From assembly GCF_026914265.1 (NCBI RefSeq), contig NC_069131.1, positions 7,270,001-7,334,000 of the forward strand: a stretch of DNA of 64,000 bases. The letters run 5' to 3'. Below the pieces are notes generated by a model. The model was not told where the DNA came from. It worked only from the letters and a program-made list of their open reading frames with translations, and did not search any database. Position 1 is the first letter of the stretch. Each line of letters starts with the position of its first letter. This document shows positions 7,261-59,561 of the stretch, piece by piece. Origin of the DNA: Mya arenaria. Taxonomy: Eukaryota > Mollusca > Bivalvia > Myida > Myidae. The translations under genes and the position numbers were made by a program.

Positions 7261-7293
7261 AGTTGAAGTACCCGCGTTAGATAAATAACAACG

Positions 7294-8646
7294 GTGGCAA
7301 ACATGACGACCTCGCTGCTGAACTTGTCTGACGTCACAAGTACAAAAGTGACGTCATTTATTTCAACGACGTCATCAATGGCACCAAACCTCACTGTTTT
7401 GAGTGAGGACGAAAAATACGAGATTCTCGTCGAATATAACAATGAAAAGGCGACATTATATATCCCAGTCATAGCTTATATGCTGATTTTGACAGTTGTT
7501 GGAACATTTGGGAACATTCTAGTCTGTGTCGTGTACTGCTGTAAACCAACAAAAACGTCGTCTCATTTCTTTATCATGGCGCTTGCTGTGCTCGATCTCC
7601 TCACGTGCGTGATCGGAATGCCAACGGAAATTACCGATCTCAGATATCCCTACATGTTTTATGCTTCCGCCGCCTGCAAACTGCTCCGCTTTGTCGAATC
7701 CGTGACAACAATGGGATCGTCTATTATTCTAATCTCCGTTGCAGTTGACAGGTACCTTCGGATTTGTAAGCTGGGGAGGCAGATTTCTGTCACTGCGGCC
7801 AAGCGGATAAGCGTGGCGGCCATGGTTGTCGGCGTTTTGTTGTCATGGCCGGCGTGCTTTATATTTGGACGCTCAACTGAAAAACTCGAACCGGGCATTT
7901 ATGGCGTTGATTGTTCAACTGACGACTCAATGCGTAATACACACTATCCAAGTTTGTACTACGGTTTTTTGGGACTACTTTTTGTCTGCTGCATAACATT
8001 TTTTGCTGTTGTGTATGTACAAATCGGTCTCAAAATCTGGAAACAAAAGCGCGCCAGGGTTGGGCAGAGAATGAATCGTGATTCTGGCTTCTCGTCTGGT
8101 AAACAGAGGAAGTTCAGCGCGAGCTCCACACGCGACAGTGTGGGGATGGAACAGAACGGAAATGTGCCTGAAGAAAATAACAAGAAGCTCGAACCTCCCA
8201 TTGATAATGCTTCCGACCCAATCAGCACTGACATGTCTTCCGATCAAGTGAACGAATCATTGTCGAAGAAGAAATGTATCTCTGATAAACGGATTTCAGA
8301 AGTGTCGTCTGCTAACTCGAAATCAAATGATGTTCTGAAAAAGCGGACAATCAAGGTCACGCGGACGACTGTTGTATTGTTCGCTGTAACTGTCGCTTAT
8401 GTCATAAGCTATTTACCATTCTTAATTCTTATGGTATTGCGCAGTGTCAAGAAAGACTTCGAGGACAGTTTGTCTCCTACACAAGAAGTGGTGTTTAAAT
8501 TTTGTGTTAAATCCTACTTCATAAACAACGCAATAAATCCAGTCATATACAGTTACTTGAACCTTAACTTCCGTAAGGACGCCAAGAATATGATCAGGCG
8601 GATTGTTGGCGCATGTTGTTGTTGCAGACGACAGCAGCAGGATTGA
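7294..8646 (+). CDS. Class A (rhodopsin-like) G-protein-coupled receptor, single coding exon
   Basis: Complete 450-aa seven-helix receptor, expected at the plasma membrane. The N-terminal tail (1-53) is Ser/Thr-rich with N-glycosylation sequons at N3, N10 and N32. TM1 is about 54-82 (GN at 73-74), TM2 about 90-112 (LAVLD with D101), TM3 about 125-158 with disulfide Cys128 and DRY at 152-154, and TM4 about 170-191 with W185. Cys207 is the likely ECL2 partner. TM5 is about 219-246; ICL3 is long (about 110 aa), Ser/Lys-rich and polar. TM6 is about 357-383 and TM7 ends in NPVIY (415-419). Four Cys at 441-444 are likely palmitoylated. The usual CWxP of TM6 reads SYLP here, so the toggle tryptophan is a tyrosine. 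The pattern fits the expanded peptide/amine-like orphan receptors of molluscs, but I cannot assign a ligand. The start follows a splice acceptor at 7262 and has a fair Kozak context. Confidence 0.95.
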   Translation: MANMTTSLLNLSDVTSTKVTSFISTTSSMAPNLTVLSEDEKYEILVEYNNEKATLYIPVIAYMLILTVVGTFGNILVCVVYCCKPTKTSSHFFIMALAVLDLLTCVIGMPTEITDLRYPYMFYASAACKLLRFVESVTTMGSSIILISVAVDRYLRICKLGRQISVTAAKRISVAAMVVGVLLSWPACFIFGRSTEKLEPGIYGVDCSTDDSMRNTHYPSLYYGFLGLLFVCCITFFAVVYVQIGLKIWKQKRARVGQRMNRDSGFSSGKQRKFSASSTRDSVGMEQNGNVPEENNKKLEPPIDNASDPISTDMSSDQVNESLSKKKCISDKRISEVSSANSKSNDVLKKRTIKVTRTTVVLFAVTVAYVISYLPFLILMVLRSVKKDFEDSLSPTQEVVFKFCVKSYFINNAINPVIYSYLNLNFRKDAKNMIRRIVGACCCCRRQQQD

Positions 8647-9479: not shown

Positions 9480-11215
9480 TATTGTTGGACCTACAGACAA
9501 GTGTGAACTGGACCTACACACAGGTGTGAACTGGAACTACAGACAGGTGTGAACTGGACCTACAGACAGGTGTGAACTTGACCTACAGATTGGTGTGAAC
9601 TGGACCTACAGACAGGTGTTTACTAGAACTACAGACAGGTGTGAACTGGACCTACAGACAAGTGTGAACTGGACCTACAGACAGGTGTTAACTAGACCTA
9701 CAACCAGGTGTGAACTGGACCTACAGACAGGTGTTAACTGGACCTACATGCATGTTTGAACTGAACCTACAGGCAGGTGTTATCTAGACCTACAGACAGG
9801 TGTGAACTGGACCTACGGACAGGTGTTAGCTAGACCTGCAGACAGGTGTGAACTGGACATATGGACAGGTGTTATCTAGGCCTACAGACAGGTGTGAACT
9901 GGATCTACGGACAGCTGTTATCTAGGCCTACAGACAGGTGTGAACTGGACATACAGACAAGTGTGAACTTGACCTACGGACAGGTGTTATCTAGACCTTA
10001 AGACAGCTGTGAACTGGACATACGGACAGGTGTTATCTAGACCTTAAGACAGCTGTGAACTGGATCTACGGACAGGTGTTATCTAGACCTTAAGACAGCT
10101 GTGAACTGGATCTACGGACAGGTGTTATCTAGACCTTAAGACAGCTGTGAACTGGATCTACGGACAGGTGTTATCTAGACCTTAAGACAGCTGTGAACTG
10201 GATCTACGGACAGGTGTTATCTAGACCTTAAGACAGCTGTGAACTGGATCTACGGACAGGTGTTATCTAGACCTTAAGACAGCTGTGAACTGGATCTACG
10301 GACAGGTGTTATCTAGACCTTAAGACAGCTGTGAACTGGATCTACGGACAGGTGTTATCTAGACCTTAAGACAGCTGTGAACTGGATCTACGGACAGGTG
10401 TTATCTAGACCTTAAGACAGCTGTGAACTGGATCTACGGACAGGTGTTATCTAGACCTTAAGACAGCTGTGAACTGGATCTACGGACAGGTGTTATCTAG
10501 ACCTTAAGACAGCTGTGAACTGGATCTACGGACAGCTGTTATCTAGACCTACTGACAGGTGTGAACTGGACATACAGACAGCTGTTATCTAGACCTACTG
10601 ACATGTGTGAACTGGACATACAGACAGCTGTGAACTGGATCTACGGACAGCTGTTATCTAGACCTACTGACAGGTGTGAACTGGACATACGGACAGCTGT
10701 TATCTAGACCTACTGACAGGTGTGAACTGGACATACGGACAGGTGTTATCTAGACCTACAGACAGGTGTGAACTGGACCTACGGACAGCTGTTATCTAGA
10801 CCTACTGACAGGTGTGAACTGGACATACGGACAGGTGTTATCTAGACCTACAGACAGGTGTGAACTGGACATACAGACAGGTGTGAACTGGATCTACGGA
10901 CAGCTGTTATCTAGACCTACTGACAGGTGTGAACTGGACATACAGACAGCTGTGAACTTGACCTATAGATTGGTGTGAACTTTACCTACAGACAGGTGGG
11001 AACTTGACCTACAGATTGGTGTGAACGTTTCCTACAGACAGGTGTTTACTGGACCTACATGCATGTTTGAATTGAACCTACAGGCAGGTGTTATCTAGAC
11101 CTACAGACAGGTGTGAACTTGACCTATGGACAGGTGTTAACTAGACCTACAGACCGGTGTTAACTAGACCTGCATGCAGGTGTGAACTGCACCTACATGC
11201 AGGTGTGCACATGCC
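9480..11215. repeat. Minisatellite of ~23 bp with a 46-bp higher-order core
   Basis: About 75 diverged monomers of roughly 23 bp (GACCTACAGACAGGTGTGAA-type). From about 10005 to 10530 the array is homogenised into a 46-bp dimer (one monomer with CAGGTG, the next with CAGCTG) repeated about 11 times nearly without change. Edges are more diverged than the core, the classic pattern of unequal exchange. No long frame spans it. Confidence 0.95.
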
Positions 11216-14082: not shown

Positions 14083-15125
14083 TAATTCAGGCATGGGTAC
14101 GTGTACGTGTGGACGTCATCCAGGTATGGGTACGTGTTCGTGTGGATGTCATCCGAATATGGGTACGTGTTGATGTGGATGTCATCCGAATATGGGTGCG
14201 TGTTCATGTGGACGTCACTCAGGTATAAGTTCGTGTACGTGTGGTCGTCATGAAATTATTGGTACGTGTACGTGTGGACGTCATTCAGGTATGGGCACTT
14301 GTACGTGTGGACGTCATCCAGGCATAGGTATGTGTTCGTGTGTATGTATCAATGTATGGGTACGTGTACGTGTGGACGTCATCCAGGTATAGGCATGTGT
14401 TCGTGTGTATGTATCAATGTATGGGTACGTGTACGTGTGGACGTCATCCAGGTATGGGTACTTGTACGTGTGGACGTCATCCAGGCATAGGTATGTGTTC
14501 GTGTGTATGTATCAATGTATGGGTACGTGTACGTGTGGACGTCATCCAGGTATAGGTATGTGTTCGTGTGTATGTATCAATGTATGGGTACGTGTACGTG
14601 TGGACGTCATCCAGGTATGGGTACTTGTACGTGTGGACGTCATCCAGGTATGGGTACTTGTACGTGTGAACGTCATCCAGGTATAGGTATGTGTTCGGAC
14701 GTCATCCAGGTATAGGTATGTGTACGTGTGTATGTATCAAGGTATGGGTACATGTATGTGTGGACGTCATCCAGGTATAGGTTTGTGTTCGTGTGTATGA
14801 ATCAAGGTATGGGTACGTGTACGTGTGGACGTCATCCAAACATAGGTATGTGTACACGTGGAGGTCATGTAGGTATGGATACGTGTACGTGTGGACGTCA
14901 TACAAGTACGGCTACTAATATGTGAGGACGTCATTCAGGTACGTGTACGTGTACATGTGGACGTCATCCAGGTACTGGTACGTTTCCGTGTGGAAATCAT
15001 TCAGGCACGGGTTCGTGTACGTATTGACGTCATTAAGGTACGGTTACGTGTACAAGTAAACGTCATTCAGGTATGGACACGTGTACGTGTGGCCTTCGTG
15101 TTTTGTACGTCATCCAGGTATTGAT
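14083..15125. repeat. GT-rich minisatellite, 33-bp and 65-bp units (array 1)
   Basis: Monomers contain ACGTGTACGTGTGGACGTCA followed by TCCAGGTATGGGT (33 bp). In the middle they pair with a TATGTATCAATGTATGGGT-type monomer to give a 65-bp higher-order unit (for example starts at 14362 and 14427). The same array recurs at about 20650-21235. It flanks the segmental duplication. Confidence 0.95.
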
Positions 15126-15456
15126 ATATTGTACACGTTTATGTCAATTACGAGTTAAGTACATGGTACCTATTTCCTACGCAGCGAATATTAGAAATAA
15201 CAATACAGTATTTACATATTCTATCATCTCTTGGTATCCCGAAACACCGAGCAGTCTCAATTGAGTTTATGACTAGAACATCAATATCTCGCTTTTGATT
15301 TTCTCATACTATATAGTAAACTGATTCATAGGTATTTTTCTAGATTGAACTTGAATGAAAAATGTGTAAAAGGTGTCGAGGCGGAGTTAATCACGAAAAT
15401 TTCGCAACCAGTTCTGCCTTAAGCAATCAAGCAAACGTTATTTAAAAAGATTCATT

Positions 15457-15672
15457 TCAAACTTCTTGATTTAACCAACCAAATCCATAACCATAACGGA
15501 CTAGTAGGTTCTTGACAGAGGTACCAATGTTATCGCGTGTTGTTAACATTGAATACATATTTCTTGGAAAGAGTTCTTCAGATACATAGTAGTTTGCACC
15601 AGTATTAAGATGATCACTGCACAACGGAAACCTGCCGCATTGTCCTTTAATACGAAACATACTTACAAACAC
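15457..15672 (-). other. Conserved-looking 71-codon frame (copy A), probably non-coding
   Basis: An open frame with plausible composition is kept in both duplication copies (here and 21550-21765). The copies differ at four sites, three of which change the amino acid, so there is no sign of protein-level constraint. The frame starts at GTG rather than ATG, and no splice site of matching phase joins it to the mucin gene. Confidence 0.3.
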
Positions 15673-16061
15673 TCCAAAACTGAGTTAAGGCTTCACCGCA
15701 TAATCGAATAATGAATATACTCAGAATGGGAAATATTTCCAAAGTATCTCTTGTAATACTTAAGATCATAAGTAGACTTTCCTTGCTCATCAAGTTTTGT
15801 TTTTGAATTTTTATTTACACACTGGATTTACTCTTTCATGTCCTGTTTGAATGGGAAAGGGAGACAACTAATTTAGATATACGTTAAAACATATCGTACC
15901 GGCTACGCCCCCTCGACTTATGCTCATGTTGGACTACTTGACCCTCACCGATCCACGTAGGTTTGAATACATTAATACATGAACAAGCTTAATTTAAACC
16001 TCATATTTTAGCAACTATGGATGCAGGCACTATAACTTACCTGTTTTTTTTCTACACTTAA

Positions 16062-16419
16062 CGATGCACTATTACTCCCAAATAAGATTTACCATATTTA
16101 ATACATTTGTTTAAATTCACCAAAAAGGATAAATAAATGTCGAAAACAATGGTTATTATGAAGAATAATGTGTTAAATTTGAAAGAAAGATGCGGGAACG
16201 CGGTATTATGGGACAACAGTCGATCATACTAAATCTTTTAGCATTCACCAAACATTTGATATTTTGCGTTTTCCGCTATGAAATACACGGTTACAATCTT
16301 GTTATCGGTAATTATGTTTTTCCATAAATACATTATTAAGTGAGAAGTTGAAGGTATATCGCTCAAAATTGATATTTGTTATACATGTGTATGTATTCAT
16401 TTTGAATAAGAGTGTCACT
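16062..16419 (+). mobile_element. TTAA-type MITE, family 1, copy 2
   Basis: Bounded by TTAA at 16058-16061 and 16420-16423, with inverted ends CGATGCACTATTACTCCC and, on the other strand, AGTGACACTCTTATTC. It is duplicated with the segment (copy at 22164-22530), so the insertion predates the duplication. Confidence 0.8.
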
Positions 16420-16631
16420 TTAACAGAGCATAGCATCAATTTGTTTAATCCACATTTTTTTATTTTTATATTGTCCCATACTTGAGCATAATGAGTAAAA
16501 ATATAACAGCACAACGTAATAAGAAGCTCAAGTGTATGGTGCACACAAAAATATAAAATACAAAAGCCCACTGTAATGTAGAACTCGTACAGAATCTTAT
16601 CTAATAAGAAAGATTCATATTAATACATGAA

Positions 16632-16633
<2 letters not shown>

Positions 16634-16687
<54 letters not shown>

Positions 16688-16696
16688 ATTATTATA

Positions 16697-16773
<77 letters not shown>

Positions 16774-16832
16774 ATTATTATAATTATTATAATTATTATT
16801 ATTATTATTATTATTAAATTATTATAATTCTT

Positions 16833-16892
<60 letters not shown>
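16634..16892. repeat. (ATT)n microsatellite with TTC patch
   Basis: Roughly 260 bp of ATT/TTA triplets, interrupted by a (TTC)n patch at about 16830-16860. The equivalent in copy B (22743-22851) is less than half as long and lacks the TTC patch. Confidence 0.95.
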
Positions 16893-16894
<2 letters not shown>

Positions 16895-17754
16895 CTCTGT
16901 TAAGCACTCATTGTACCTGTGAACGAATATGAGTATTGCAAGTTAGACGTAAACAATTACCATTTATTATCAGTAATACGGTATAAGGTTCATTTTTACA
17001 TTATTGATCTCATTCGCCGCTGTAGATGTTTGTTTCTTGGGTATCTATTTCCAAAACCGTATAGGTAAGAACATTTCAGTTTGGTTCTGGTTTTGCAAAT
17101 TCACTAGTTATGAATGTAAGTATGTTATCTTTGGAAAATGAAACACCAAATACCATTAACCATAGGACAATTATGTCCACCGATCCGTGTAGCTGTCTGG
17201 TTTACAGATGCGGTTTGGATAAACTCACTTTCAGTCGGTTTTAGTTCAAGGCCGGTAACTCCAAAATGTACCAATTAGGAGAATTATGTTTTGCGTTTTG
17301 TCGGTCTGACCGTGTGGTATTAAACCTTGTGTGCAACTCGTTCAGTGTATGTAAACCTTATATTTGCCATATTTTGTACAAATTAAAAACTTGATTCCCT
17401 CGCAAAGAGGCGTTTTTAGTTTAATTTTACTCGGATAAAAGCAGTACCAAAAAATAATAACGTTTAGTATAAAATGATTTTGTTTCCATGGCCACTAACA
17501 CTTTTCAATAAAGCATTCGTGTAAATGTGAAGGTCATATCAATAATATTGTAAATACTGGGCAAAGCGAACGTTGTGTTTCATCTTTAATCCGTTCAAGG
17601 TACATGAATCTAAAGTCTCTTTTGCAAAATCAACCCAACGCATGTGAGAGCAGATGTCATTAAAATAGAAGGAATGGCGACCACACAGCTTGATTCTGAA
17701 ATGAAAATAAGAGTTATCAGGTTATATATGGGATTGAGGCCACAACTATGAAAT

Positions 17755-18060
17755 GCACAAGTCAATTGTTACCATGGACCCCCCCCCCCAAGGTCCGGAG
17801 AATTGCGGGGACTTTGACTTTCGGTCCAGCCAATCCCGGGTAAAATCTCCCCCCTGCGGGAACAAATTGCTAGTAAAATCCCCACCAGATTCCCCCGCAC
17901 CCCGGATACCTAGGTAAGGCCCGTTCCCCGCTTTTATCGGAGTGAAATCAAAACCACCGCATTCACTCGGCAATGCGAGGCCACCTGGAAGGTAAAAACA
18001 CGGCCCATTTCCCCCGCTATCCCCGGTATACCCCCGAACCCTGAGGGGGGGGTACAATTG
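17755..18060. repeat. G/C-run block bounded by C and G homopolymers
   Basis: A GC-rich island in AT-rich DNA: a C run at about 17780-17789, imperfect GGGGGA/TTTTAC-type repeats between, and a G run at about 18044-18051. A glycine-rich frame is open on the minus strand. The homopolymers differ in length from the duplicate at 23742-24026 and no start or splice context fits, so I treat it as repeat DNA. Confidence 0.5.
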
Positions 18061-18239
18061 ACTGGTGCATAAAGTGCTATCAGCAAGTAATGTCTGAAAT
18101 GTTTCGAATTGAAATGATCTTTATTGTATTCGATATTGTCCTTGTTTTGCATGAGCTTTTTTTAAAATGCCTAGCATTTAATGCAAGGAATTAACTATGA
18201 TACCCGAGGTTAAATATTTGCATTATAAAACTAAATAAA

Positions 18240-19050
18240 AATACACTACATTCTCATAAACGTTAAAACAACCAAATGCAGCTTGACAAGATCACTAGCA
18301 CGTTAAAGCAGCATAATGCAGCTTGGCAAGTTCAGTAGCATGTTTAAGCAGCCAAAGCCAGCGTAGACAAGTTTATTAGAATGTTAAAGCAGTCAAATAC
18401 AGCTTGGCAAGTTCAGTAGCATGTTTAAGCAGCCAAAGCCAACGTAGACAAGTTCATTATAATGTTTAAGCAGCAAAATGCTGCTTGGCAAGCTAATTAG
18501 CATCTTTAAGCAACCAAATGCTGCTTAGCAAGTTCATTCGCATGTTAAAGCAGCCAAAGCCAGCGTAAACAAGTTCAATAGCAGGATAAAGCAGCCAAAG
18601 CCAACATAAACAGGTAAATTAGCATGTTTAAGCAGCCAACTCCAGCGTAGATAAGTTCATTAGCATGTTAAGGCAACAAATTGCTGCTTGACAAGTTCAT
18701 TAGCATGTTAAAGCAACCAAAGTCAGCGTAGATAAGTTCATTAGTATTGTTAAGCAACCAAATGCTGCTTGACAAGTTCATTAGCCTGTTAAAGCAACCA
18801 AATGCAGCTTGACAAGTTCATTGGCATGTTAAAGCAGCCAAAGCCAATTTAGACAACTTCATTAGCATGTTTATCAAATAAAGCCAGCGTAGATTAGTTC
18901 ATTAGCATGTTGACGCTACCAAATGCTGCTTGACAAGTTCATTAGCATGTTAAAGCAATCAAAGCCAACTTAGACAATTTCATTAGCATGTTAAGCAACC
19001 AAATACAGCTTGACAAATTCACTAGCATGTTCAAGCAACCAAAGACCAGG
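18240..19050. repeat. Imperfect ~41-bp tandem repeat
   Basis: About 20 copies of a unit with TTAAAGCA, then CCAAA(TGC or GCC), then GACAAGTTCATTAGCATG. Two monomer types (AATGCTGCTTG and AAGCCAGCGTAG) alternate irregularly. It is duplicated with the segment at about 24222-25015. Confidence 0.9.
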
Positions 19051-19198
19051 AGTCTTCTTTGAGGTTTTAGCTTGTTTATGAGTACTCAAACTAAAGCATG
19101 TTTTGAATACTATAAGGTGATGTTCCATCAGAAACTAAATCCGTGAACAACCTCTGTGTCAGATTCCATTACCAACAGATAAAACAATAGCTACAAAC

Positions 19199-19276
19199 CT
19201 TCTGTTGTATTTGAATTTGTACTGGTAGTGGAACCGGAACTCGGACTGGTACTGGACACGGTACTGGCACTGGTTT
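19199..19276 (-). CDS. Duplicated short mucin exon (copy A)
   Basis: A 78-bp Ser/Thr-rich exon, phase 1 at both ends, with acceptor TATCGTTGCAG and donor G|GTTTGTAG. It is nearly identical to the exon at 25173-25250 and encodes about 25 residues dominated by Ser, Thr and Pro. Both splice sites are intact, so it could be included downstream of the main gene or belong to a second gene copy. The terminal exon of this transcript was not identified. Confidence 0.5.
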
Positions 19277-19482
19277 CTGCAACGATATAAACAAACATTA
19301 ATCATATTAAAACTGTTTATTACTTTCTATACAACAGTTTGTTTTATGTTAAACATTATGAAACCCCTATATGTATAGCCAAGGTTATTCCCAAATATAA
19401 ATTCATATTAAAATATCTCTAACTCTAGCAACCTCTGTGTCTTACTCCAATAAACCCCGGTAAACAAATACAATCTACAAAC

Positions 19483-20650
19483 CTGTTGTGTCATTGGAAC
19501 TTAGGATGGAAACTGATCTTGAAGTTGCAGGTGATGCGGTTGTATTTGAACTTGGAATGGAGCTGGAACTTATATTTGTACTTGAAGAAGTTGTAGGTGA
19601 ACTAAGACTGGAACTCGAACTAGTATTTGTACTTGAAGAAGATGCGGTTGTTGTTGAACTAAGACTGGAATTGGACCTTGTATTCGCACTTGTATTTGTA
19701 CTTGAAGAAGATGCGGTTGTAGTAAAACTAAGACTGGAATTGGAACTTGTATGTGTACTTGTATGTGTACTTGCAGGAGATGCGGTTGTAGTTGAACTTT
19801 GAATGGAACTAGCACTTGAATTTACAGTTGTATTTGTACTTGCAGGAGAGGCAGTTGTAGTTAAACTTGGACTTGGACTTGAACTTGAATTTGTACTTGT
19901 ATTTTCATTTGCTGGAGATTCAGTTGTAGTTGAACTTAGACTTGGACTAGAACTTGAATTTGTACTTGCAAGAGATGCGGTTGTAGTTGAACGTGGACTG
20001 GGACTAGAACTTGAAATTGTACATGTATTTGTACTTGATGGAGATGCAGTTGTAGTTGAACTGTAACTGGAACCGAAACTAAACGTTGTATTTGTACTTG
20101 ATGGAGATGCGGTTGTAGTTGAACTGGGACTGGAACCAGAACTTGAATTTACACTTGCATTTGTACTTGATGGAGATGCGGTTGTAGTTGAATTGGGACT
20201 GGAACTAGAACTTGAATTTGCACTTGCATTTGTACTTGTTGGAGATTCAGTTGTAGTTGAACTTAGACTTGGACTAGAACTTGAATTTGTACTTGCAAGA
20301 GATGCGGTTGTAGTTGAACGTGGACTGGGACTAGAACTTGAAATTGTACTTGTATTTGTACTTGATGGAGATGCAGTTGTAGTTGAACTGTAACTGGAAC
20401 CCGAACTTAACGTTGTATTTGTACTTGATGGAGATGCGGTTGTAGTTGAACTGGGACTGGAACTAGAACTTGAATTTGCACTTGCATTTGTACTTGTTGG
20501 AGATGCGGTTGTAGTTGAACTGGTACTGGAACTAGAACTTGAATTTGCACTTGTATTTGTACTTGCAGGAGATACGGTAGTACTTGAACTCTGACTGGAA
20601 CTTGTGTTTTTACTTGCAGGGGATACAGTTGAATTTGAATTGTAACTGGA
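19483..20650 (-). pseudogene. 5'-truncated copy of the long mucin exon (copy A)
   Basis: On the minus strand a Ser/Thr/Pro frame (SSSSPSSTTTASPSSTNT-type repeats) stays open to the donor G|GTTTGTAG at 19483, matching 25457-26067 of the intact exon with internal repeat-number differences. At its 5' side it runs directly into the GT-rich minisatellite at about 20650, with no acceptor and no 51-bp repeats. It is best read as an exon cut by the duplication breakpoint. The frame happens to stay open into the minisatellite, so read-through cannot be excluded. Confidence 0.6.
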
Positions 20651-21235
20651 ATTTGTATGTGTACGTGTGTATGTATCAAGGTATGGGTACGTGTACGTGT
20701 GGACGTCATCCAGGTATAGGTATGTGTACGTGTGTATGTATCAAGGTATGGGTACATGTACGTGTGGACGTCATCCAGGTATAGGTTTGTGTTCGTGTTT
20801 ATGTATCAAGGTATGGGTACGTGTACGTGTGGACGTCATCCAGGTATAGGTATGTGTACGTGTGTTTGTATCAATGTATGGGTACGTGTACGTGTGGCCG
20901 TCATCCAAACATGGGTATGTGTACACGTGGAGGTCATATAGGTATGGATACGTGTACGTGTGGACGTCATACAAGTACGGCTACTAATATGTGAGGACGT
21001 CATCCAGGTACGTGTACGTGTACATGTGGACGTCATCCAGGTACGTGTACGTGTACATGTGGACGTCATCCAGGTACGGGTACGTTTTCGTGTGGAAATC
21101 ATTCAGGCACGGGTTCGTGTACGTATTGACGTCATTAAGGTACGGTTACGTGTACAAGTAAACGTCATTCAGGTATGGACACGTGTACGTGTGGCCTTCG
21201 TGTTTTGTACGTCATCCAGGTATTGATATATTGTA
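20650..21235. repeat. GT-rich minisatellite (array 2)
   Basis: Shorter version of the 14083-15125 array with the same 33-bp monomers. It carries one extra ACGTGTACATGTGGACGTCA unit near 21030-21070 relative to array 1. Confidence 0.9.
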
Positions 21236-21549
21236 CACGTTTATGTCAATGACGAGTTAAGTACATGGTACCTATTTCCTACGCAGCGAATATTAGAAAT
21301 AACAATACAGTATTTACATATTCTATCATCTCTTGGTATCCCGAAACACCGAGCAGTCTCAATTGAGTTTATGACTAGAACATCAATATCTCGCTTTTGA
21401 TTTTCTCATACTATATAGTAAACTGATTCATAGGTATTTTTCTAGATTGAACTTGAATGAAAAATGTGTCGAGGCCGAGTTAATCACGAAAATTTCGCAA
21501 CCAGTTTTGCCTTAAGCAATCAAGCAAACGTTGTTTAAAAAGATTCATT

Positions 21550-21765
21550 TCAAACTTCTTGACTTAACCAACCAAATCCATAACCATAACGGACTAGTAG
21601 GTTCTTGACAGAGGTACCAATGTTATCGCGTGATGTTAACATTAAATACATATTTCTTGGAAAGAGTTCTTCAGATACATAGTAGTTTGCACCAGTATTA
21701 AGATGATCACTACACAACGGAAACCTGCCGCATTGTCCTTTAATACGAAACATACTTACAAACAC
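21550..21765 (-). other. 71-codon frame (copy B), probably non-coding
   Basis: Duplicate of 15457-15672. It differs at four sites, three of them non-synonymous, so there is no evidence of selection on a protein. Confidence 0.3.
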
Positions 21766-22163
21766 TCCATAAATTGAGTTAAGGCTTCACCGCATAATCG
21801 AATAATGAATATACTCAGAATGGGAAATATTTCCAAAGTATCTCTTGTAATACTTAAGATCATACGTAGAATTTCCTTGCTCATCAAGTTTTGTTTTTGA
21901 ATTAACGCCTTTTATTTACACACTGGATTTACTCTTTCATGTCCTGTTTGAATGGGAAAGGGAGACAACTAATTTAGATATACGTTAAAACATATCGTAC
22001 CGGCTACGTCCCCTCGACTTATGCTCATGTTGGACTACTTGACCCTCACCGATCCACGTAGGTTTGAATACATTAATACATGAACAAGCTTACCTTAAAC
22101 CTCATATTTTAGCAACTATGGATGCAGGCACTATAACTTACCTGTTTTTTTTTCTACACTTAA

Positions 22164-22530
22164 CGATGCACTATTACTCCCAAATAAGATTTACCATATT
22201 TAATACATTTGTTTCAATTCACCAAAAAGGATAAAATAAATGTCGAAAACAATGGTTATTATGAAGAATAATGTGTTAAATTTGAAAGAAAGATGCGGGA
22301 ACGCGGTATTTCTACCTTATGGGACAACAGTCGATCATAGTTAATCTTTTAGCATTCACCAAACATTTGATATTTTGCGTTTTCCGCTATGAAATACACG
22401 GTTACAATCTTGTTATCGGTAATTATGTTTTTCCATAAATACATTATTAAGTGAGAAGTTGAAGGTATATCGCTCAAAATTGATATTTGTTATACATGTG
22501 TATGTATTCATTTTGAATAAGAGTGTCACT
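22164..22530 (+). mobile_element. TTAA-type MITE, family 1, copy 3
   Basis: Flanked by TTAA at 22160-22163 and 22531-22534; the segmental duplicate of the element at 16062-16419. It contains a short extra TTCTACCTT block that also occurs as TTTCTACCATTTAAG in the 32.6-kb copy, so copy 2 has lost it. Confidence 0.8.
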
Positions 22531-22741
22531 TTAACAGAGCATAGCATCAATTTTTTTTATCCACATTTTTTATTTTTATATTGTCCCATACTTGAGCATA
22601 ATGAGTAAAAATATAACAGCACAACGTAATAAGAAGCCCAAGTATATGGTGCACACAAAAATATAAAATACAAAAGCCCACTGTAATGTAGAACTCGTAC
22701 AGAATCTTATCTAATAAGAAAGATTCATTTTAATACATGAA

Positions 22742-22742
<1 letters not shown>

Positions 22743-22783
<41 letters not shown>

Positions 22784-22793
22784 ATTATTATTA

Positions 22794-22851
<58 letters not shown>
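22743..22851. repeat. (ATT)n microsatellite
   Basis: About 110 bp of ATT triplets with two interruptions; the duplicate of 16634-16892. Confidence 0.95.
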
Positions 22852-23741
22852 ATATACTCTGTTAAGCACTCATTGTACCTGGGAACGAATATGAGTATTG
22901 CAAGTTAGACGTAAACAATTACCATTTATTATCAGTAATACGGTATAAGGTTCATTTTTACATTATTGATCTCATTCGCCGCTGTAGATGTTTGTTTCTT
23001 GGGTATCTATTTCCAAAACCGTATAGGTAAGAACATTTCAGTTTGGTTCTGGTTTTGCAAATTCACTAGTTATGAATGTAAGTATGTTATCTTTGGAAAA
23101 TGAAACACCAAATACCATTAACCATAGGACAATTATGTCCACCGATCCGTGTAGCTGTCTGGTTTACAGATGCGGTTTGGATAAACTCACTTTCAGTCGG
23201 TTTTAGTTCAAGGCCGGTAACTCCAAAATGTACCAATTAGGAGAATTATGTTTTGCGTTTTGTCGGTCTGACCGTGTGGTATTAAACCTTGTGTGCAACT
23301 CGTTCAGTATATGTAAACCTTATATTTGCCATATTTTGTACAAATTAAAAACTTGATTCCCTCGCAAAGAGGCGTTTTTAGTTTAATTTTACTCGGATAA
23401 AAGCAGTACCAAAAAATAATAACGTTTAGTATAAAAGGATTTTGTTTCCATGGCCACTAACACTTTTCAATAAAGCATTCGTGTAAATGTGAAGGTCATA
23501 TCAATAATATTGTAAATACTGGGCAAAGCGAAAGTTGTGTTTCATCTTTAATCCGTTCAAGGTACATGAATCTAAAGTCTCTTTTGCAAAATCAACCCAA
23601 CGCATGTGAGAGCAGATGTCATTAAAATAGAAGGAATGGCGACCACACAGCTTGATTCTGAAATGAAAATAAGAGTTATCAGGTTATATATGGGATTGAG
23701 GCCACAACTATGAAATGCACAAGTCAATTGTTACCATGGAC

Positions 23742-24026
23742 CCCCTCCCCCCCCCCAAGGTCCGGAGAATTGCGGGGACTTTGACTTTCGGTCCAGCCAA
23801 TCCCGGGTAAAATCTCCCCCCTGCGGGAACAAATTGCTAGTAAAATCCCCACCAGATTCCCCCGCACCCCGGATACCTAGGTAAGGCCCGTTCCCCGCTT
23901 TTATCGGAGTGAAATCAAAACCACTGCATTCACTCGGCAATGCGAGGCCACCTGGAAGGTAAAAACACGGCCCATTTCCCCCGCTATCCCCGGTATACCC
24001 CCGAACCCTGAGGGGGGGGGGGGGGT
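23742..24026. repeat. G/C-run block (copy B)
   Basis: Same block as 17755-18060. The C run at its left edge is broken by a T and the G run at its right edge (24012-24025) is about 14 long, longer than in copy A. The difference shows active slippage. Confidence 0.5.
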
Positions 24027-24221
24027 ACAATTGACTGGTGCATAAAGTGCTATCAGCAAGTAATGTCTGAAATGTTTCGAATTGAAATGATCTTTATTGT
24101 ATTCGATATTGTCCTTGTTTTGCATGAGCTTTTTTTTAAAATGCCTAGCATTTAATGCAAGGAATTAACTATGATACCCGAGGTTAAATATTTGCATAAT
24201 AAAACTAAATAAAAATACACT

Positions 24222-25015
24222 ACATTCTCATAAACGTTAAAACAACCAAATGCAGCTTGACAAGATCACTAGCACGTTAAAGCAGCATAATGCAGCTTGG
24301 CAAGTTCAGTAGCATGTTTAAGCAGCCAAAGCCAGCGTAGACAAGTTTATTAGAATGTTAAAGCAGTCAAATACAGCTTGGCAAGTTCAGTAGCATGTTT
24401 AAGCAGCCAAAGCCAGCGTAGACAAGTTCATTATAATGTTTAAGCAGCAAAATGCTGCTTGGCAAGCTAATTAGCATCTTTAAGCAACCAAATGCTGCTT
24501 AGCAAGTTCATTCGCATGTTAAAGCAGCCAAAGCCAGCGTAAACAAGTTCAATAGCAGGATAAAGCAGCCAAAGCCAACATAAACAGGTAAATTAGCATG
24601 TTTAAGCAGCCAACTCCAGCGTAGATAAGTTCATTAGCATGTTAAGGCAACAAATTGCTGCTTGACAAGTTCATTATCATGTTAAAGCAACCAAAGTCAG
24701 CGTAGATAAGTTCATTAGTATTGTTAAGCAACCAAATGCTGCTTGACAAGTTCATTAGCCTGTTAAAGCAACCAAATGCAGCTTGACAAGTTTATTGGCA
24801 TGTTAAAGCAGCCAAAGCCAATTTAGACAACTTCATTAGCATGTTTATCAAATAAAGCCAGCGTAGATTAGTTCATTAGCATGTTGACGCTACCAAATGC
24901 TGCTTGACAAGTTCATTAGCATGTTAAAGCAATCAAAGCCAACTTAGACAATTTCATTAGCATGTTAAGCAACCAAATACAGCTTGACAAATTCACTAGC
25001 ATGTTCAAGCAACCA
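24222..25015. repeat. Imperfect ~41-bp tandem repeat (copy B)
   Basis: Duplicate of 18240-19050 with the same monomer order and only scattered substitutions. Confidence 0.9.
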
Positions 25016-25172
25016 AAGACCAGGAGTCTTCTTTGAGGTTTTAGCTTGTTTATGAGTACTCAAACTAAAGCATGTTTTGAATACTATAAGGTGATGTTCC
25101 ATCAGAAACTAAATCCGTGAACAACCTCTGTGTCAGATTCCATTACCAACAGATAAAACAATAGCTACAAAC

Positions 25173-28148
25173 CTTCTGTTGTATTTGAATTTGTACTGGT
25201 AGTGGAACCGGAACTCGGACTGGTACTGGATACGGTACTGGCACTGGTTTCTGCAACGATATAAACAAACATTAATTATATTAAAACTGTTTATTACTTT
25301 CTATACAACAGTTTGTTTTATGTAAAACATTATGAAACCCCTATATGTATAGCCTAGGTTATTCCCAAATATAAATTCATATTAAAATATCTCTAACTCT
25401 AGCAACCTCTGTGTCTTACTCCAATAAACCCCGGTAAACAAATACAATCTACAAACCTGTTGTGGTATTGGAACTTAGGATGGAATCAGAACTTGGACTG
25501 GAAACTGATCTTGAAGTTGCAGGTGATGCGGTTGTATTTGAACTTGGAATGGAGCTGGAACTTATATTTGTACTTGAAGAAGATGCGGTTGTAGTAAAAC
25601 TAAGACTGGAATTGGAACTTGTATGTGTACTTGTATGTGTACTTGCAGGAGATGCGGTTGTAGTTGAACTTTGAATGGAACTAGCACTTGAATTTACAGT
25701 TGTATTTGTACTTGCAGGAGAGGCAGTTGTAGTTAAACTTGGACTTGGACTTGAACTTGAATTTGTACTTGTATTTTCATTTGCTGGAGATTCAGTTGTA
25801 GTTGAACTTAGACTTGGACTAGAACTTGAATTTGTACTTGCAAGAGATGCGGTTGTAGTTGAACGTGGACTGGGACTAGAACTTGACATTGTACTTGTAT
25901 TTGTACTTGATGGAGATGCAGTTGTAGTTGAACTGTAACTGGAACCCGAACTTAACGTTGTATTTGTACTTGATGGAGATGCGGTTGTAGTTGAACTGGG
26001 ACTGGAACTAGAACTTGAATTTGCACTTGCATTTGTACTTGTTGGAGATGCGGTTGTAGTTGAACTGAAACTGAAAGTTGTATCTGTACTTTCAGGAAGT
26101 GAGGTTGTATGTGAACTGGAACTGGAAGTTGTATATGTACTTTCAGGAGGTGCGGTTGTATTTGAACTGGAACTGAAAGTTGTTTCTGTACTTTCAGAAG
26201 ATGCGATTGTATTTGAAGTGGAACTGGAAGTTGTATCTGTACTTTCAGGAAACATAGTTGTATTTGAACTGAAACTGGAAGTTGTATCTGTACTTTTAGG
26301 AGATGCGGTTGTATATGAACTTGAACTGGAAGTTGTATCCGTACTTTCAAGAGATGCAGTTGTATTTGAAGTGGAACTGGAAGTTGTATCTGTATTTTCA
26401 GGAAACATAGTTGTATTTGAACTGGTACTGGGAGTTGTATCTGTTCTTTCAGAAGGTGCGGTCGTATTTAGAGTGGAACAGGAAGTTGAATCTGTACCTT
26501 CAGGAGGTGCGGTTGTATTTGAATTGGAACTGGAAGTTGTATATGTAGTTTCAGAAGATGCGGTTGTATTTGAACTAGAACTTGAAGTTGAATCTGTACT
26601 TTCAGGAAACATGGTTGTATTTGAAGTGGAACTGGAAGTTGTATCTGTACTTTCAATAGACGCGGTTGTATTTGAACTTGAACTTTGAGGTGCACCTGAA
26701 CTTGCAAAAGACGCGACTGTATTTGAAGTCGAACTTGACATAGTATCTGTACTTGCAGGATATTCAGTTGTTTTTGAACTGGAACTTGAAATTATATCTG
26801 TACTTTCAGGAGATGCGGTTGTATTTGAACTGGAACTTGACATTGTATCTGTACTTGCAGGATATTCAGTTGTATTTGTACTGGAACTTGACATTATATC
26901 TGTACTTCCAGGAGATGCGGTTGTATTTGAACTGGAACTTGACATTGTATCTGTACTTGCAGGATATTCAGTTGTATTTGTACTGGAACTTGACATTATA
27001 TCTGTACTTTCAGGAGATGCGGTTGTATTTGAACTGGAACTTGACATTGTATCTGTACTTGCAGGATATTCAGTTGTATTTGAACTGGAACTTGACATCG
27101 TATCTGTACTTTTAGGAGATGCGATTGTATTTGAACTGGAACTTGACATTATATCTGTACTTTCAGGTGATGCGATTGTATTTGAACTGGAACTTGACAT
27201 TATATTTGTACTATCAGGAGATGCAGTTGTATTTGAACTGTAACTTGACATTATATCTGTACTTTTAGGAGATGCGGTTGTATTTGAACTGGAACTTGAC
27301 ATTATATCTGTACTTTCAGGAGATGCGGTTGTATTTGAATTGGAACTTGACATTGTATCTGTACTTGCAGGATATTCAGTTGTATTTGTACTGGAACTTG
27401 ACATTATATCTGTACTTGCAGGATATTCAGTTGTATTTGTACTGGAACTTGACATTATATCTGTACTTTCAGGTGATGCGATTGTATTTGAACTGGAACT
27501 TGACATTATATCTGTATTTTCAGGAGATGCGGTTGTATTTGAACTGGAACTTGACATTGTATCTGTACTTGCAGGATATTCAGTTGTATTTGAACTCGAA
27601 CTTGACATTATATCTGTACTTTCAGGAGATGCGGTTGTATTTGAACTGGAACTTGACATTGTATCTGTACTTTCAGGAGATGCGATTGTATTTGAACTGG
27701 AACTTGACATTATATCTGTACTTGCAGGATATTCAGTTGTATTTGAACTCGAACTTGACATTATATCTGTACTTTCAGGAGATGCGGTTGTATTTGTACT
27801 GGAACTTGACATTATATCTGCAACGATATTATCATTATTCATACATATTAGCTGTGTTTTAAACGTTTGTTTTTGCTTTCGTTTGATCAGTCCGTATATT
27901 AAAATTAAATAATCAGTTATAAGCAATGAAGCCCTATGTCTTTTTAACATTTACTTTTTGAAAGACAAATAATGTCTTGTAGCAGACGCCAAAAGAAATA
28001 AGCAGAACAAATATTAAAATGTGCCAATTTCGTACATAAGCCTTTATTTAGGCCTGAAGTTTTCGTGAGTTTTGCAATAAAAATATATATTTCACTTACT
28101 AATCATACAAGTTACGAGAATGGCGACGAGCTGAGTTGTATGAAGCAT
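25173..28148 (-). CDS. Secreted mucin-like Ser/Thr-rich repeat protein (5' exons)
   Basis: Three exons on the minus strand, all joined in phase 1. Exon 1 (28100-28148) encodes the signal peptide MLHTTQLVAILVTCMI and ends A|GTAAGTG. Exon 2 (25457-27817; acceptor ATATCGTTGCAG, donor G|GTTTGTAG) encodes 787 residues. Exon 3 (25173-25250) adds a 25-residue Ser/Thr stretch. The protein is almost entirely Ser, Thr, Asn and Pro: about 22 copies of a 17-residue unit of the type STDIMSSSSSNTTASPE, about a dozen diverged units, then longer PSSTTTASPSSTNT-type units. Nearly every unit has an N-glycosylation sequon (NTT) and many O-glycosylation candidates. The expected role is a secreted, heavily glycosylated gel or coat protein. 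The 3' end is unresolved: without splicing at G|GTTTGTAG, exon 2 would stop after TTTGL. Downstream exons are duplicated at 19199-20650. Confidence 0.7.
25457..27817 (-). CDS. Long mucin repeat exon (exon 2)
   Basis: A 2361-bp exon. About 27817 to 26690 is a 51-bp tandem repeat in which two unit types (ending TTASPE and TTEYPA) alternate; 26690 to 26070 holds diverged units (TTMFPES, TTAPPES); 26067 to 25457 holds units that lie in the segmental duplication. Because 51 is a multiple of three, other frames and the opposite strand also stay open for long stretches; those are shadows. Splice phase fixes the Ser/Thr frame as the coding one. Confidence 0.75.
28100..28148 (-). CDS. Signal-peptide exon of the mucin-like gene
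   Basis: ATG followed by a hydrophobic core (LVAILVTCMI) and a GTAAGTG donor in phase 1, matching the phase of the next exon exactly. TTTCAGGTTTGCAG just upstream (about 28163-28176) looks like an acceptor, so a 5' UTR intron is likely. The phase match across about 280 bases of intron is the main support. Confidence 0.65.
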
Positions 28149-30485
28149 TCTTCTCTGTGACCTGCAAACCTGAAAGTACGATCAGCATTTTTTCCAATAA
28201 AGCAGTCTGTATGTAGTCTACAGGGTTAGACCCAACAGCCATCACACACTCTCATTTTGTTTAATATCAATTGGTGGCCAAATTCTGTCATTTCGTAGGC
28301 CATGATGTATCCGGGCCAACTCATGTGAGGCTTTGAAAGTTGGCAGCACATCAGGTCAAACAATCTTTGTTTGAACCGAAGTGACCGTCATCATCATGGA
28401 AAACAGTGGAATTTATTTAATACTTATGGAATTTCATGTAATTTTACAATGTTTTAAAACAAAAGTCCAATTATATTTCTATTCAAATGTACAAGTTGTA
28501 ACTGCTCTTAATAAAATATATGAAAAGAGTTATCTGTTTCATTTATTTATTTTAAACCAATACCTCAATGCTCTTTCGTAACATTTTACAGCAAAGAATC
28601 CAGATATCTATCTAGTTCTCCAAAAACTAATGCACTAGGTAAATTTAGCTTTGTCATCAAGAAGGTGTTTAAAAAATTCAAGGCGTTATTTATCAAATTA
28701 TTTGTACTTGTAACTTCACCATAGTTCAGAACCGTACAATGGAATGGAGGAAATCAGTAAATCAAATAGATTAAGTTTAGATTTCACATCAATAAACTTT
28801 GCTAAATTTACATATTAAACTACGGTAGGCTTTAAGCGCTTGTTGATCCAATGATTGAACAGCATATTTCATATTCATAAAAATGCCTTTTTTTCGAAGA
28901 AAGACCAAAATTGTATTTTTACGCATTTATAAGCAAAGTCACATTAAATTGTTTATCGTAAGAAAAAAGTAAATGTAATATTTCTTGAAAGTTTAAACAA
29001 AATGAATAAAACGTAACGATTTCACATGTAACCAAGCAGGTAGGCACTATTGTCTAAGATAACCTACGATGGCTTTTATGGTTCTAAACAGAAAATGTCA
29101 AAATCCGCGACTTTTAATATTTGAACGCTGGGAACAGTTTAAATGTCACAATTCTACTGTTAGAATGCATAACTGGAAACATATAAAATATTTTTGGGTT
29201 TCAAGTACACCAGGGTAAACACTTGATGATCAAACGTTTTTGTTCGTTTTTATGAAACTACCTTATTGACATATGTTAATCAGTTCAAGTTAAAGAAAGT
29301 CGCAATTGTGGTTGTTAATATTTTACATATCCCCTGTCGAAATTAGTTCCCATATTCTGTCAGCAGCATTGAAGGTCACGGTTTTACATTCAACCAAGCT
29401 TGAACGCATTATAGTCCATTATTAATTTCACGGGCTTTCCTGTTTTTACCGAAAGTATCAAAATACACAAATGTTCATATTTAAACATTATGAACGGATT
29501 TAAATGTTACAACCCTACTTTAAGAATGCACGAATGATACTCTTACACTTATTTGGTAGTTATAAATTTATCCGGGTTAACATTTAAAGGATAAAGACTT
29601 CGACATTAAATCCCATATATTCTTGTGTGAATTGACCGATCAGCACGCGTCAGAACACTGATTTCTAGTATGTCACGACCTCAAACCCCAACGTAACGAT
29701 TTTAAATGTCACAATTCACCTGTTGGAATGCAAAAATGGCAATGAAACAAATTGTTTGGGACCAAATGTTTAAAAATCTCATGATGTTCATTGAATGAAA
29801 CGCACATGAAGAAGAGGAGTGAATTAAAATCGTATTGTACGTTCGGTAGGTGACACATGAACTCCAAGTTTATAATCGATAGTGCCCATCCTACCATCAT
29901 GCCAGTAAAACAAAATTGTTTTTGAAAGAAACACACATTTCCTTATTATTTTCCCATTATCATTGCAACTTAATATCGCTAAGTGAACAAAAGTTGTATT
30001 AAATACAGATATGTATCAGACGTTAGTCGCTTCACCTTCATCATTTTTTATAATGTACTTTTCAACACACACTATTGGCATTCAATCAAAGGTATTCATT
30101 TTTTCAACTGAGATATAAACGCGTTCATATTTATCCAAGGGGCAAATTATCCCTAGAGGGCATATTTAAATATTCCACATGGGCAATCTTCCAGCATATG
30201 ACAGCATATTACAAAAGTATACGTGCAACTTACAACCAAGCAGCGTAACATATGATTTAATAACAATATATGATGAGATTAGCTGTCTGTAATGTATCAA
30301 AACGTCTGGTGAAATGCTCGCAATGGTCCTATACATACTACTTAAGTCAAACCTAACATTTCTGGCTTCTGTTTTATTGTGTTGCACAAATTCAAATCCA
30401 TACAAACAAGTGTCCACGGTTGTATGTAATACAATACAAATCGTTTAGATGCAATCACATGATATAAAGCAAGTTATATTATTAT
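28149..30485. other. AT-rich stretch with a degenerate ~300-bp repeat
   Basis: No gene recognised. A decayed motif (AACG.TTTAAATGTCACAATTC, then TGTTAGAATGCA) recurs near 29130, 29494 and 29694, with a trace near 29015. This suggests an old tandem or clustered repeat. The first part is the upstream region of the mucin-like gene, with no clear TATA box. Confidence 0.4.
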
Positions 30486-30781
30486 AGCTACACTCTCATA
30501 TATACACGGTTTTTACAACTTTTTTATTTTTTGTCTTGGAAAGAGAATTTTTTGCGTAAATATCTGCAAACCAATGATAAAAGATTGCTGACAAAAGATA
30601 AGACGGTTTAAGAAAAATGCATAAAACATCATTTTTTGAACTAACATTTAAAAATCTGCGATCTATGTTTTTGTCAGCAGACTTATATAATTGGTTTTCA
30701 TGGATATTTCGCAAAAATTGGCTCGTTTCAAGACAAAAAATAAAGAAGTTGTCAAAACGTTCAATCTGTGAAAGTGCAGCT
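30486..30781. mobile_element. TTAA-type MITE, family 2, diverged copy
   Basis: Right end CAATCTGTGAAAGTGCAGCT abuts TTAA (30782-30785); the left end AGCTACACTCTCATATATAC is a decayed inverted match next to TTAT. The same family has a cleaner copy at 59214-59557. Short frames inside it are not genes. Confidence 0.65.
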
Positions 30782-32617
30782 TTAAAGACGGTAAATGTTC
30801 GTGATAGAAAAAAAAATGGAAGTGATAATACGTAGCCAGCTATAGGAGAAGGTTTTTTTTTAAATAAAAACAAACAAAGAAATAACTAGCCTAAAAAACT
30901 AAGAAAATCAATGTGTAAATTAGAGGAATTTGTGCATATTTTATTTAGATATATCAGCCCAAATCTTACTTCTATTCAAGAGCGTATTGCTTTAAAACAA
31001 AAATATGTTCTAAGTGTTACCATCTCCTTTTGAAGGTATCTTGATTCTTGTTCTTCTGTGTTGCTGTTGTTTTCCCGGTATTTAGTCCTTCACCTAGCTA
31101 TTGTTTTACATGGCTACTGTAAAGCTCTTGCTCTCTTCCCTGCACATTTCGAGTTAACAATAAAGTATTTTACTAAAAGTATCAGAAAATTATTTGATAG
31201 CTGGGCTTATCCTCATTTGGCAGTAAATCATAAATCTCTAGACATTTGAATGATAATTCTATAAACCCCGTTTAATGAGTCAGAACCGTATTTTTCTTCC
31301 CTGTTTCCAAATCGAGCGTATTTTACTCACGCAAGCTTAAGTTATATTGTACGTCAAACAATGCATTAGTAAAACATGCTTAATCAACCTGGTTATACTG
31401 TTTTAATAAAAAAGCAATATTTAATAAATATTGTCCTCGTAGAATTGATAAAAAAATGTGGTTATGCAAAAATAACCATGCAACATTCTTACACTGAAAC
31501 AAACAAATGAAATCATTTTTAAGCGAACAAATACCTATCGAACATGAACAAAAGCAAATAAAAATACAAAAGCATGTTTTACATACATTTTGACTCCAAA
31601 TGTTCTAGTGCACCTTTTGAATTGCTTAATCAGTTTGGGGTAAATGGTTAAGGGATAAACTTCCTTTTGTGTTTACAGGTAAATTTCCCAAAAACCTTTT
31701 CCTCTATTTTCTCAAAATACTGGTAAAATAATTTTCCTTACCTCATAAGGCTAAATGAATTAAAACCTCGTTTCAGCTGACATGTAGAAAGAAAATAGGG
31801 AAGGTTGGTAGGTAGGTGTAACTTTTGTTTTCTGTATCGGGTTATATCACTTTATTATATGTTTTCCGGTGGTTTGTAGAGATTTGTCAGTGAAAAAAAA
31901 TGATATTTCACTGTTTCAAACAATGAAAAAATCAATTTGATATTTTTCACTGTTCTGAAATTTTAGCACGCTCTCGATTCCAAACCAAACGTGAGCGTCA
32001 CAGGGCCTGGGCACAATTTCAACAACGTCATTTCCGAAATGACGTTACGTGCGCATACAAATTGGCGTATAATTGAAAGAAAAAATGTTTATTTCAGTGT
32101 AAAATAGCAATATATTTCTCCTTGTGAACACCAAAAATGAATACTTCACTCGTTGCTACTCCAGTCGTGAAATATAAAATTTGGTGCTCACTCGGTTAAA
32201 AAGGTAATATTCTTACACTGAAAAAACATTTATCCTCTTTATAAGTGTGATGTATTGATATGTTTTAAAAGTAAACTGATCATATTCCAAAAGTTAACGA
32301 TCAAATTCTGAGATTTTTATTCAAATAACACATATTGTATTTAACATTAAATTCGGGTGTATTTAAGATTTTCTAAAAATGCACACAAAAGCACAGCTCT
32401 TTACAAAATACATGAATACATGTTATCCTTAAAACGTGGCTAGCTTCATATACAATCGGTTTAAGTTTTACACGCACAATAATATTCATGTTTTATGTTC
32501 GTTTATTAATTTAGTCTCCTAAGTAATTCTGTAACCTGATACAAGCACATTCGATACGATAGTTCAGCTTAACTGTTTTGCGCAGTTTCTCTCACTATTT
32601 CTTTGGTTTACATTTAA
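30782..32617. other. AT-rich stretch with repeat fragments
   Basis: No gene recognised. About 31690-31830 has AGGTAGGTAGGTG-like sequence resembling 13370-13390. About 31890-32220 has repeated TGATATTTCACTG / TTTTTCACTG motifs around a perfect short palindrome at 32024-32046 (11-nt arms, AACGTCATTTC). This looks like a dispersed element, but its ends are unclear. Confidence 0.4.
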
Positions 32618-32987
32618 AGATGCATTCTTACTCCCGCATAAGATTAACCACAATTAAAACTATTGTTTATCATTCCAAAAGGGACGAATACATGTCGAAA
32701 ACAATGGTTCTAATGAAGGATACCTATTATAATTTGAAGGAAATTTGCATAAAACACAGTATTTCTACCATTTAAGATCATGGTAGGTTACAGTAACTCT
32801 TTTAGCATTCACCAATCATTTAATATTTTTGCTTTTTCAGCTATTGAATACACGATTACAATATTGTTATCAGTTATTAACATTTTCCATAAAATAATAC
32901 ATAATTTAGTAAGAAGTTAAAGGTTTATCAGTCAAATTTTCTGTTTGGTATATATGTGTATGTATTGATATGAATAAGAGTATCACT
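32618..32987 (+). mobile_element. TTAA-type MITE, family 1, copy 4
   Basis: The cleanest copy: TTAA at 32614-32617 and 32988-32991, inverted ends AGATGCATTCTTACTC and, on the other strand, AGTGATACTCTTATTC; 370 bp. It has no coding capacity. Confidence 0.85.
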
Positions 32988-33399
32988 TTAAGCAAAATGT
33001 TTGATATTTGAGATGTCATAGTTAACCATGTGTTAACTTGGTTAAGCAAAAGATGATCGCTTACATAGTAACCTTTGGAGTATCGCTTAATTATTTTTAT
33101 GCTCACATTAAGAGTGTAAGTGAAATATTTCATTATTTGAATAGAATATATCAAGTTGCATGAGTCAATGATGTTGTTGATAAGTTATTTCAATACCTAG
33201 GGACCGGGAATTAGGAGATCGGATAATACGGCGAGAGACCGGAAAATAGTATTGGCCACCTTTGGGCCGTGATGGTTACTTTGTAAATATATATACATTA
33301 TTAAAACAATAATGAAAATCCATATTTTACATCACGGTTTGAAGGGAAATATCGTCAAATATAGCATAGAAGTTCTTTAAGATGTTTTCGTGTAAGTAA

Positions 33400-48415: not shown

Positions 48416-55060
<6,645 letters not shown>

Positions 55061-59557: not shown

Positions 59558-59561
59558 TTAA

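Follow-up and report, generated by a model that had tools for sequence, protein, structure and literature searches.

The window analysed here comprises 64,000 nucleotides of contig NC_069131.1 of the bivalve Mya arenaria (GCF_026914265.1, positions 7,270,001 to 7,334,000, forward strand). It contains a predicted gene for a mucin-like protein and, directly beside it, a partial copy of the same gene. The complete gene is read from the minus strand. The coding part of its exon 1 (28100-28148) begins with a Met, encodes a hydrophobic leader, ends in phase 1, and is present in a single copy. The large exon 2 (25457-27817) runs from phase 1 to phase 1 and consists of Ser/Thr repeats, which are 17 amino acids long in the first part and about 23 amino acids long in the second. 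It is followed by exon 3 (25173-25250) and by exon 4 (23572-23657), which encodes a C-terminal hydrophobic segment and the stop codon. In this four-exon model, all introns are in phase 1 and have GT-AG ends.

The joined exons give a product of 857 residues followed by a stop. Ser and Thr make up 35.6% and 23.2% of the product. It carries 39 sequons for N-glycosylation, and its C-terminal hydrophobic stretch ends in QKRL. The 12 most hydrophobic windows of 17 residues, a measure of hydrophobicity only, are at residues 2-23 and 831-853. The conceptual product has the layout of a mucin-like membrane glycoprotein, with a leader that resembles a signal peptide, Ser/Thr tandem repeats and a C-terminal hydrophobic segment. 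A Pfam search of two reading frames of exon 2 at an E value of 0.01 gave no family, including no known mucin domain (VWD, SEA). The word mucin-like is therefore used for composition and layout and does not mean membership in a family. No Pfam family was found in the frames of the GC-rich introns either, and the Rfam and tRNA scans gave no match.

The 3' part of this gene belongs to a direct tandem duplication with a unit of about 6 kb. Copy A extends from about 14716 to 20654, and copy B, which carries the 3' part of the complete gene, starts at 20655. In a BLAST comparison of the window with itself, 14588-16746 of copy A corresponded to 20655-22853 of copy B, and 16769-20664 corresponded to 22737-26650. 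The two members of nine two-copy repeat families were also separated by 5962-6111 bp. These results bear out the claim of the first-pass annotation, made from the letters of the DNA, that direct and adjacent copies lie at 14700-26067. The left end of each copy is in a GT-rich minisatellite with a 33-bp unit, of which there are 30.8 units at copy A (14088-15092) and 16.5 units at copy B (20655-21194), where the array is cut off at the join between the copies (the seam). Because copy B seems to be longer by one 65-bp unit, the start of copy A is ambiguous within 14588-14716; the earlier value of about 14700 is thus refined to about 14716 with this ambiguity. The duplicated 3' flank includes one insertion of a roughly 400-bp dispersed element, which is hence present in both copies (16053-16423 and 22155-22534). 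The other members of this family are at 200-645, 32609-32991 and 36733-36951, and identity within it is 73-84%.

The right end given earlier, 26067, did not hold as an edge of the event. This position is only the approximate point at which the exon 2 arrays of the two copies diverge. The end units of copy A (20523-20654) matched the exon of copy B at best at 80% over their length (86% over 78 bp), and copy B continues there with 17-amino-acid units. The lengths of exon 2 also differ between the copies. We therefore rejected 26067 as a breakpoint, and the unlikeness of the end units means that it reflects a later change of the array or an allelic difference.

Copy A contains a remnant of exon 2 (19483-20654, minus strand), exon 3 (19199-19276) and exon 4 (17610-17695). 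The remnant belongs to an open frame of 421 codons, of which about 29 lie in the minisatellite and none encodes Met. In the exact search, the motif of the exon 2 acceptor (27818) and the motif of exon 1 each occurred once, and at an E value of 1e-4 the region 27817-29137 (in a query covering 27817-33000) had no match elsewhere in the window. These findings mean that copy A is without the head of the gene. Past 29137, the same query picked up a pair of 42 bp inside 29.1-29.7 kb and, from 30.4 kb onward, dispersed elements. The sequence thus indicates that copy A is a headless 3' gene fragment made by partial duplication, and the earlier statement that the duplicated exon had been severed from its acceptor agrees with the single acceptor motif. 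The short exon said to be left intact, exon 3, has indeed kept its splice sites and differs from that of copy B by one silent change, so that its protein sequence is unchanged; exon 4 is likewise intact and identical to that of copy B.

Rescue of copy A by a cryptic acceptor was considered and rejected, because none of the 26 AG sites in 20400-21300 gave an open exon with both a phase-1 start and a phase-1 end. The hexamers AATAAA and ATTAAA occur six times in about 1.6 kb past the stop of each copy, at three shared positions (20, 185 and 642 nt). Since such hexamers resemble poly(A) signals, transcription from copy B may end ahead of copy A, although they are weak evidence in AT-rich DNA. We infer the splicing of the gene model, the expression of copy B and the silence of copy A. 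Selection on copy A was also rejected as an explanation of its intact frame, which is little informative at the divergence reported below (0.85%).

The seam could be placed within a few bases (20645-20676, plus strand). The mucin repeat reaches 20654, and an exact match of 36 bp to the minisatellite (at 14716) begins at 20655. When the start was set anywhere within 20600-20654, the longest exact match to the minisatellite was at most 9 bp. From the other side, an exact mucin match crossing 20654 stops at 20657 with the unit at 19887 and at 20664 with a variant unit at 19747; by eye, a match to the common unit type GTATTTGTAC would stop at 20658. The junction is therefore two-part and has no inserted bases. 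The mucin exon had been said to be joined directly to the 33-bp minisatellite at about 20650, and these match ends fix the join at 20654/20655. The shared bases, which start at 20655, are GTA or GTAT, perhaps GTATGTGTAC. The overlap thus amounts to 3, 4 or 10 bp for different assumed parental units, and copy B no longer shows the parent. These 3-10 bp are within the range of about 2-20 bp that is typical of a microhomology-mediated duplication. The exchange point has no homology of the length (at least about 100 bp) expected for non-allelic homologous recombination, and the longest exact match between the two arrays is 10 bp.

The minisatellite side of the seam is bordered by a tract of 23 bp with alternating purines and pyrimidines (20654-20676), the longest of its kind in the window except for an AT run at 48293. 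Alternating tracts of at least 12 bp, in which G+C makes up at least a quarter, account for 27% and 38% of the sequence in the two minisatellite copies, as compared with 1.3% in the whole window and at most 0.1% in the mucin exons. According to a commentary (PMC6383211), alternating purine-pyrimidine sequences are able to form Z-DNA and have been linked to breaks and error-prone repair. A Z-prone tract is therefore plausible as the source of a break on the minisatellite side. The position of the tract is confounded with the microhomology, which lies inside it.

The two arrays had been described as similar at the junction, and the two 13-mers given for them are, by eye, identical at 11 of 13 positions. 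Pairs of 13-mers identical at 11 or more positions were counted. Against the minisatellite, there were 281 such pairs among 1,136,985 (0.025%) for the exon of copy A and 231 among 594,807 (0.039%) for the 23-amino-acid part of the exon of copy B, versus 48 of 1,180,677 and 109 of 4,954,077 in two control stretches (0.002-0.004%). Sites with a 13-mer resemblance of 11 of 13 or better number 10 in the exon of copy A (19484-20640) and 11 in that of copy B, and there were none within 15300-16500 or 28000-33000. The resemblance is therefore real for one part of the exon array, which is also the part that contains the seam. It is plausible that the short shared similarity guided the join; the numbers do not settle this, because the overlap depends on the parental unit assumed. 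In this respect, the exchange through short similarity proposed in the first-pass annotation is plausible as guidance, but as homologous unequal crossing over it is unlikely, given a longest match of 10 bp.

Eight segments of the two copies, all outside exon 2 and outside the TTA and 33-bp arrays, were aligned. They differed at 35 of 4121 sites (0.85%) and had 11 indels, each of 1-9 bp. The TTA array is 259 bp long in copy A and 108 bp in copy B. The description of the copies as nearly identical is right for the introns and the flank but not for the repeat arrays. In exon 2, there were 3 mismatches in 593 aligned bases from the 3' end to position 20522 of copy A and 8 in 33 aligned bases beyond it (11 in 626 in total). 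Blocks of 327 bp and 120 bp are present only in copy A, and 18 bp only in copy B; all three changes are in frame, because the array units are multiples of codons. The 327-bp block has 86-89% identity to its neighbours within copy A (10-14% different), which is far less than the likeness between the copies, and most simply it is older than the duplication and has disappeared from copy B. Alternatively, the copies may be derived from different alleles. The 40-bp minisatellite of intron 3 (18262-19043 and 24236-25017) has 3 differences in 782 bp and an unchanged length, while three other arrays of the locus (TTA, 33-bp and exon 2) have all changed in length.

Taken together, we favor the reading that one tandem duplication, about 5.9 kb in length, joined the exon 2 array to the minisatellite with few shared bases, and we give it a probability of roughly 0.6. 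In such an event, a broken or stalled end would arise among the repeats of mucin exon 2. This end would be linked with a unit of the minisatellite that lies past the 3' end of the gene, about 6 kb off, or synthesis would be restarted there. The partner minisatellite would be on the sister or homologous strand, and we infer end joining or template switching with few shared bases as the joining pathway. The duplicated unit would then take in exons 3 and 4 together with the 3' flank and the 3' portion of exon 2; the acceptor of exon 2, exon 1 and the region upstream would lie outside it. The right-hand copy B would keep the head of the gene and be complete, and the left-hand copy A would be headless. 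With the exon on the head side and the minisatellite on the tail side, the product would necessarily be one complete gene and one headless copy.

Several points weigh against a single duplication of this kind. The window comes from one assembly, and the seam may be an assembly join. Tandem arrays make up 58% of the single-copy locus, so that two breakpoints in arrays are unsurprising. A match of 3 or 4 bp is weak: when the exon of copy A and the minisatellite were joined at random (1,079,172 position pairs), at least 3, 4 and 10 bp were shared in 5.7%, 2.3% and 0.005% of the joins, and unique control DNA (1,121,720 pairs) gave nearly equal values of 5.0%, 1.5% and 0.005%. The 13-mer argument presupposes the parental unit, and the 17-amino-acid part of copy B has 24 such pairs in 1,724,841 (0.0014%), no better than the controls. 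Divergence is also uneven. Left of the TTA array, in the 3' flank, 22 of 1530 sites differ (1.44%), as compared with 13 of 2591 (0.50%) rightward to intron 2 (Fisher p 0.0024). A simple duplication with no subsequent exchange does not predict this pattern, which would result either from conversion at a later time or from a mosaic of two alleles. In a human study of copy number variation (CNV; PMC4090240), tandem repeats are enriched near the breakpoints, although microhomology was slight or absent at most of the 32 junctions that were sequenced.

A rival reading is an artefact of assembly, in which two alleles of one locus were set in tandem and joined where contigs stopped in arrays. The divergence and the indels are allelic in size, the array lengths differ as those of alleles would, and both edges are within arrays, where assemblers stop. 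The value of 0.85% is below the mean heterozygosity of 1.73% given for one mussel species in PMC7653742, so that two haplotypes could show it if the animal is comparable, and false duplications beside the true copy are documented (PMC9516828). However, the window is free of N, and the two sides of the seam overlap by only 3-10 bp. Overlap-based assembly joins need far more than this; wrong gap filling is a possible source of such a join. We consider an artefact rather unlikely, and the segment was quite probably duplicated in the DNA of the animal itself.

If the duplication is real, it might also have come from non-allelic homologous recombination (NAHR) between arrays that formerly shared a longer similarity, since decayed. 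The recurrence of the 13-mer resemblance along the exons of both copies is in accordance with such a history. However, the longest exact match of 10 bp between the arrays is exceeded in unique control DNA, which reaches 11 bp, and the unit sizes differ (51-69 bp in one array and 33 or 65 bp in the other). Since homologous recombination normally needs exact matches of well over 10 bp, this origin is improbable. It has also to be considered whether copy A is still alive, either by read-through from copy B with splicing to exon 3 or 4 of copy A, or as a store of repeat units for the conversion of copy B. Its exons 3 and 4 keep splice sites, phase and protein sequence, the uniform phase of the introns would allow exon 3 of copy B to join either of them, and the stretch between the TTA array and intron 2 has diverged less than the 3' flank. 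Against this, the poly(A)-signal-like hexamers past exon 4 of copy B, although weak evidence, suggest an earlier end of transcription, conservation at this age proves nothing, and the low divergence extends beyond the exons. We regard a living copy A as very doubtful. Still more speculative, and highly improbable, is a locus that acts as a built-in duplicator, in which a Z-prone minisatellite past the gene and a coding array with a common 13-bp motif repeatedly break and join, so that populations vary in headless copies and these return lost repeat units by gene conversion. Copy A does retain the 327-bp block and end units that are absent from copy B, although the block looks older than the duplication.

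Several other features of the window lie outside this locus. An open frame at 7285-8646 (plus strand) encodes a rhodopsin-type G protein-coupled receptor (7tm_1, E 1.9e-36), for which the top solved structures are orexin receptors (E 1.4e-21); this frame marks the DNA as that of an animal. A 46-bp minisatellite with about 37 units (89% matches) is at 9486-11207, and a self-complementary, hairpin-like element at 30482-30785, 71.6% identical to its own reverse complement, has a relative at 59209-59562. Long arrays of GTGAG and TGAG occupy 33419-36096 and end in about 149 TGAG units (97% matches); the GC skew is 0.965 in 34001-36000. A second direct duplication, 489 bp long with 95.3% identity, is at 46550-47038 and 50988-51475, 4.4 kb apart, and weaker repeats are at 49.2-50.6 kb in the same region.

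The locus offers a nearly base-resolved example of the joining of two unrelated tandem arrays, one coding and the other not. An edge of a duplication in a large early exon automatically gives a whole gene and a headless 3' copy. If the duplication is real and polymorphic, its direct repeats of 6 kb, which are about 99% identical, would remain available for more gains and losses, and every gain would add another headless copy. Otherwise, the locus serves as a warning that gene models there may count one gene twice.

Our literature searches, with the sets of terms used for mucin repeats or copy number variation in bivalves and for partial duplication of mucin genes, found no match. The general features of the seam have known counterparts. 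Gains mediated by microhomology, that is, by microhomology-mediated end joining (MMEJ) or by microhomology-mediated break-induced replication and fork stalling and template switching (MMBIR-FoSTeS), likewise have a single junction with 3-10 bp shared and no insertion; in the present case, both ends are in tandem arrays, one of them coding. In the pel enhancer of the stickleback (PMC6383211), fragile TG repeats that are Z-prone also place an alternating purine-pyrimidine repeat at the edge of a rearrangement. There, deletions occurred and fragility was measured, whereas here we have a duplication and a property of the sequence alone. False (heterotype) duplications (PMC9516828) resemble our case in having adjacent, near-identical copies with allele-like divergence, but in them a gap or an unsupported join lies between the pair, and here there is no gap.

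Tandem duplications of parts of genes that yield gene fragments are a standard class (PMC5460883). In the Drosophila yakuba and D. simulans cases described there (Rogers et al.), as at this locus, an edge of the duplication within a gene fuses a fragment to non-coding DNA. Fragments that capture the 5' end can activate neighbouring sequence in those flies. In contrast, the extra copy in Mya arenaria is a 3' fragment without the head of the gene, and no new transcript would therefore be expected from it. In the flies, precise breakpoints often could not be determined, whereas here the seam is read within a few bases. We think that the present locus is a partial gene duplication of an ordinary kind, with a seam that is unusually readable.

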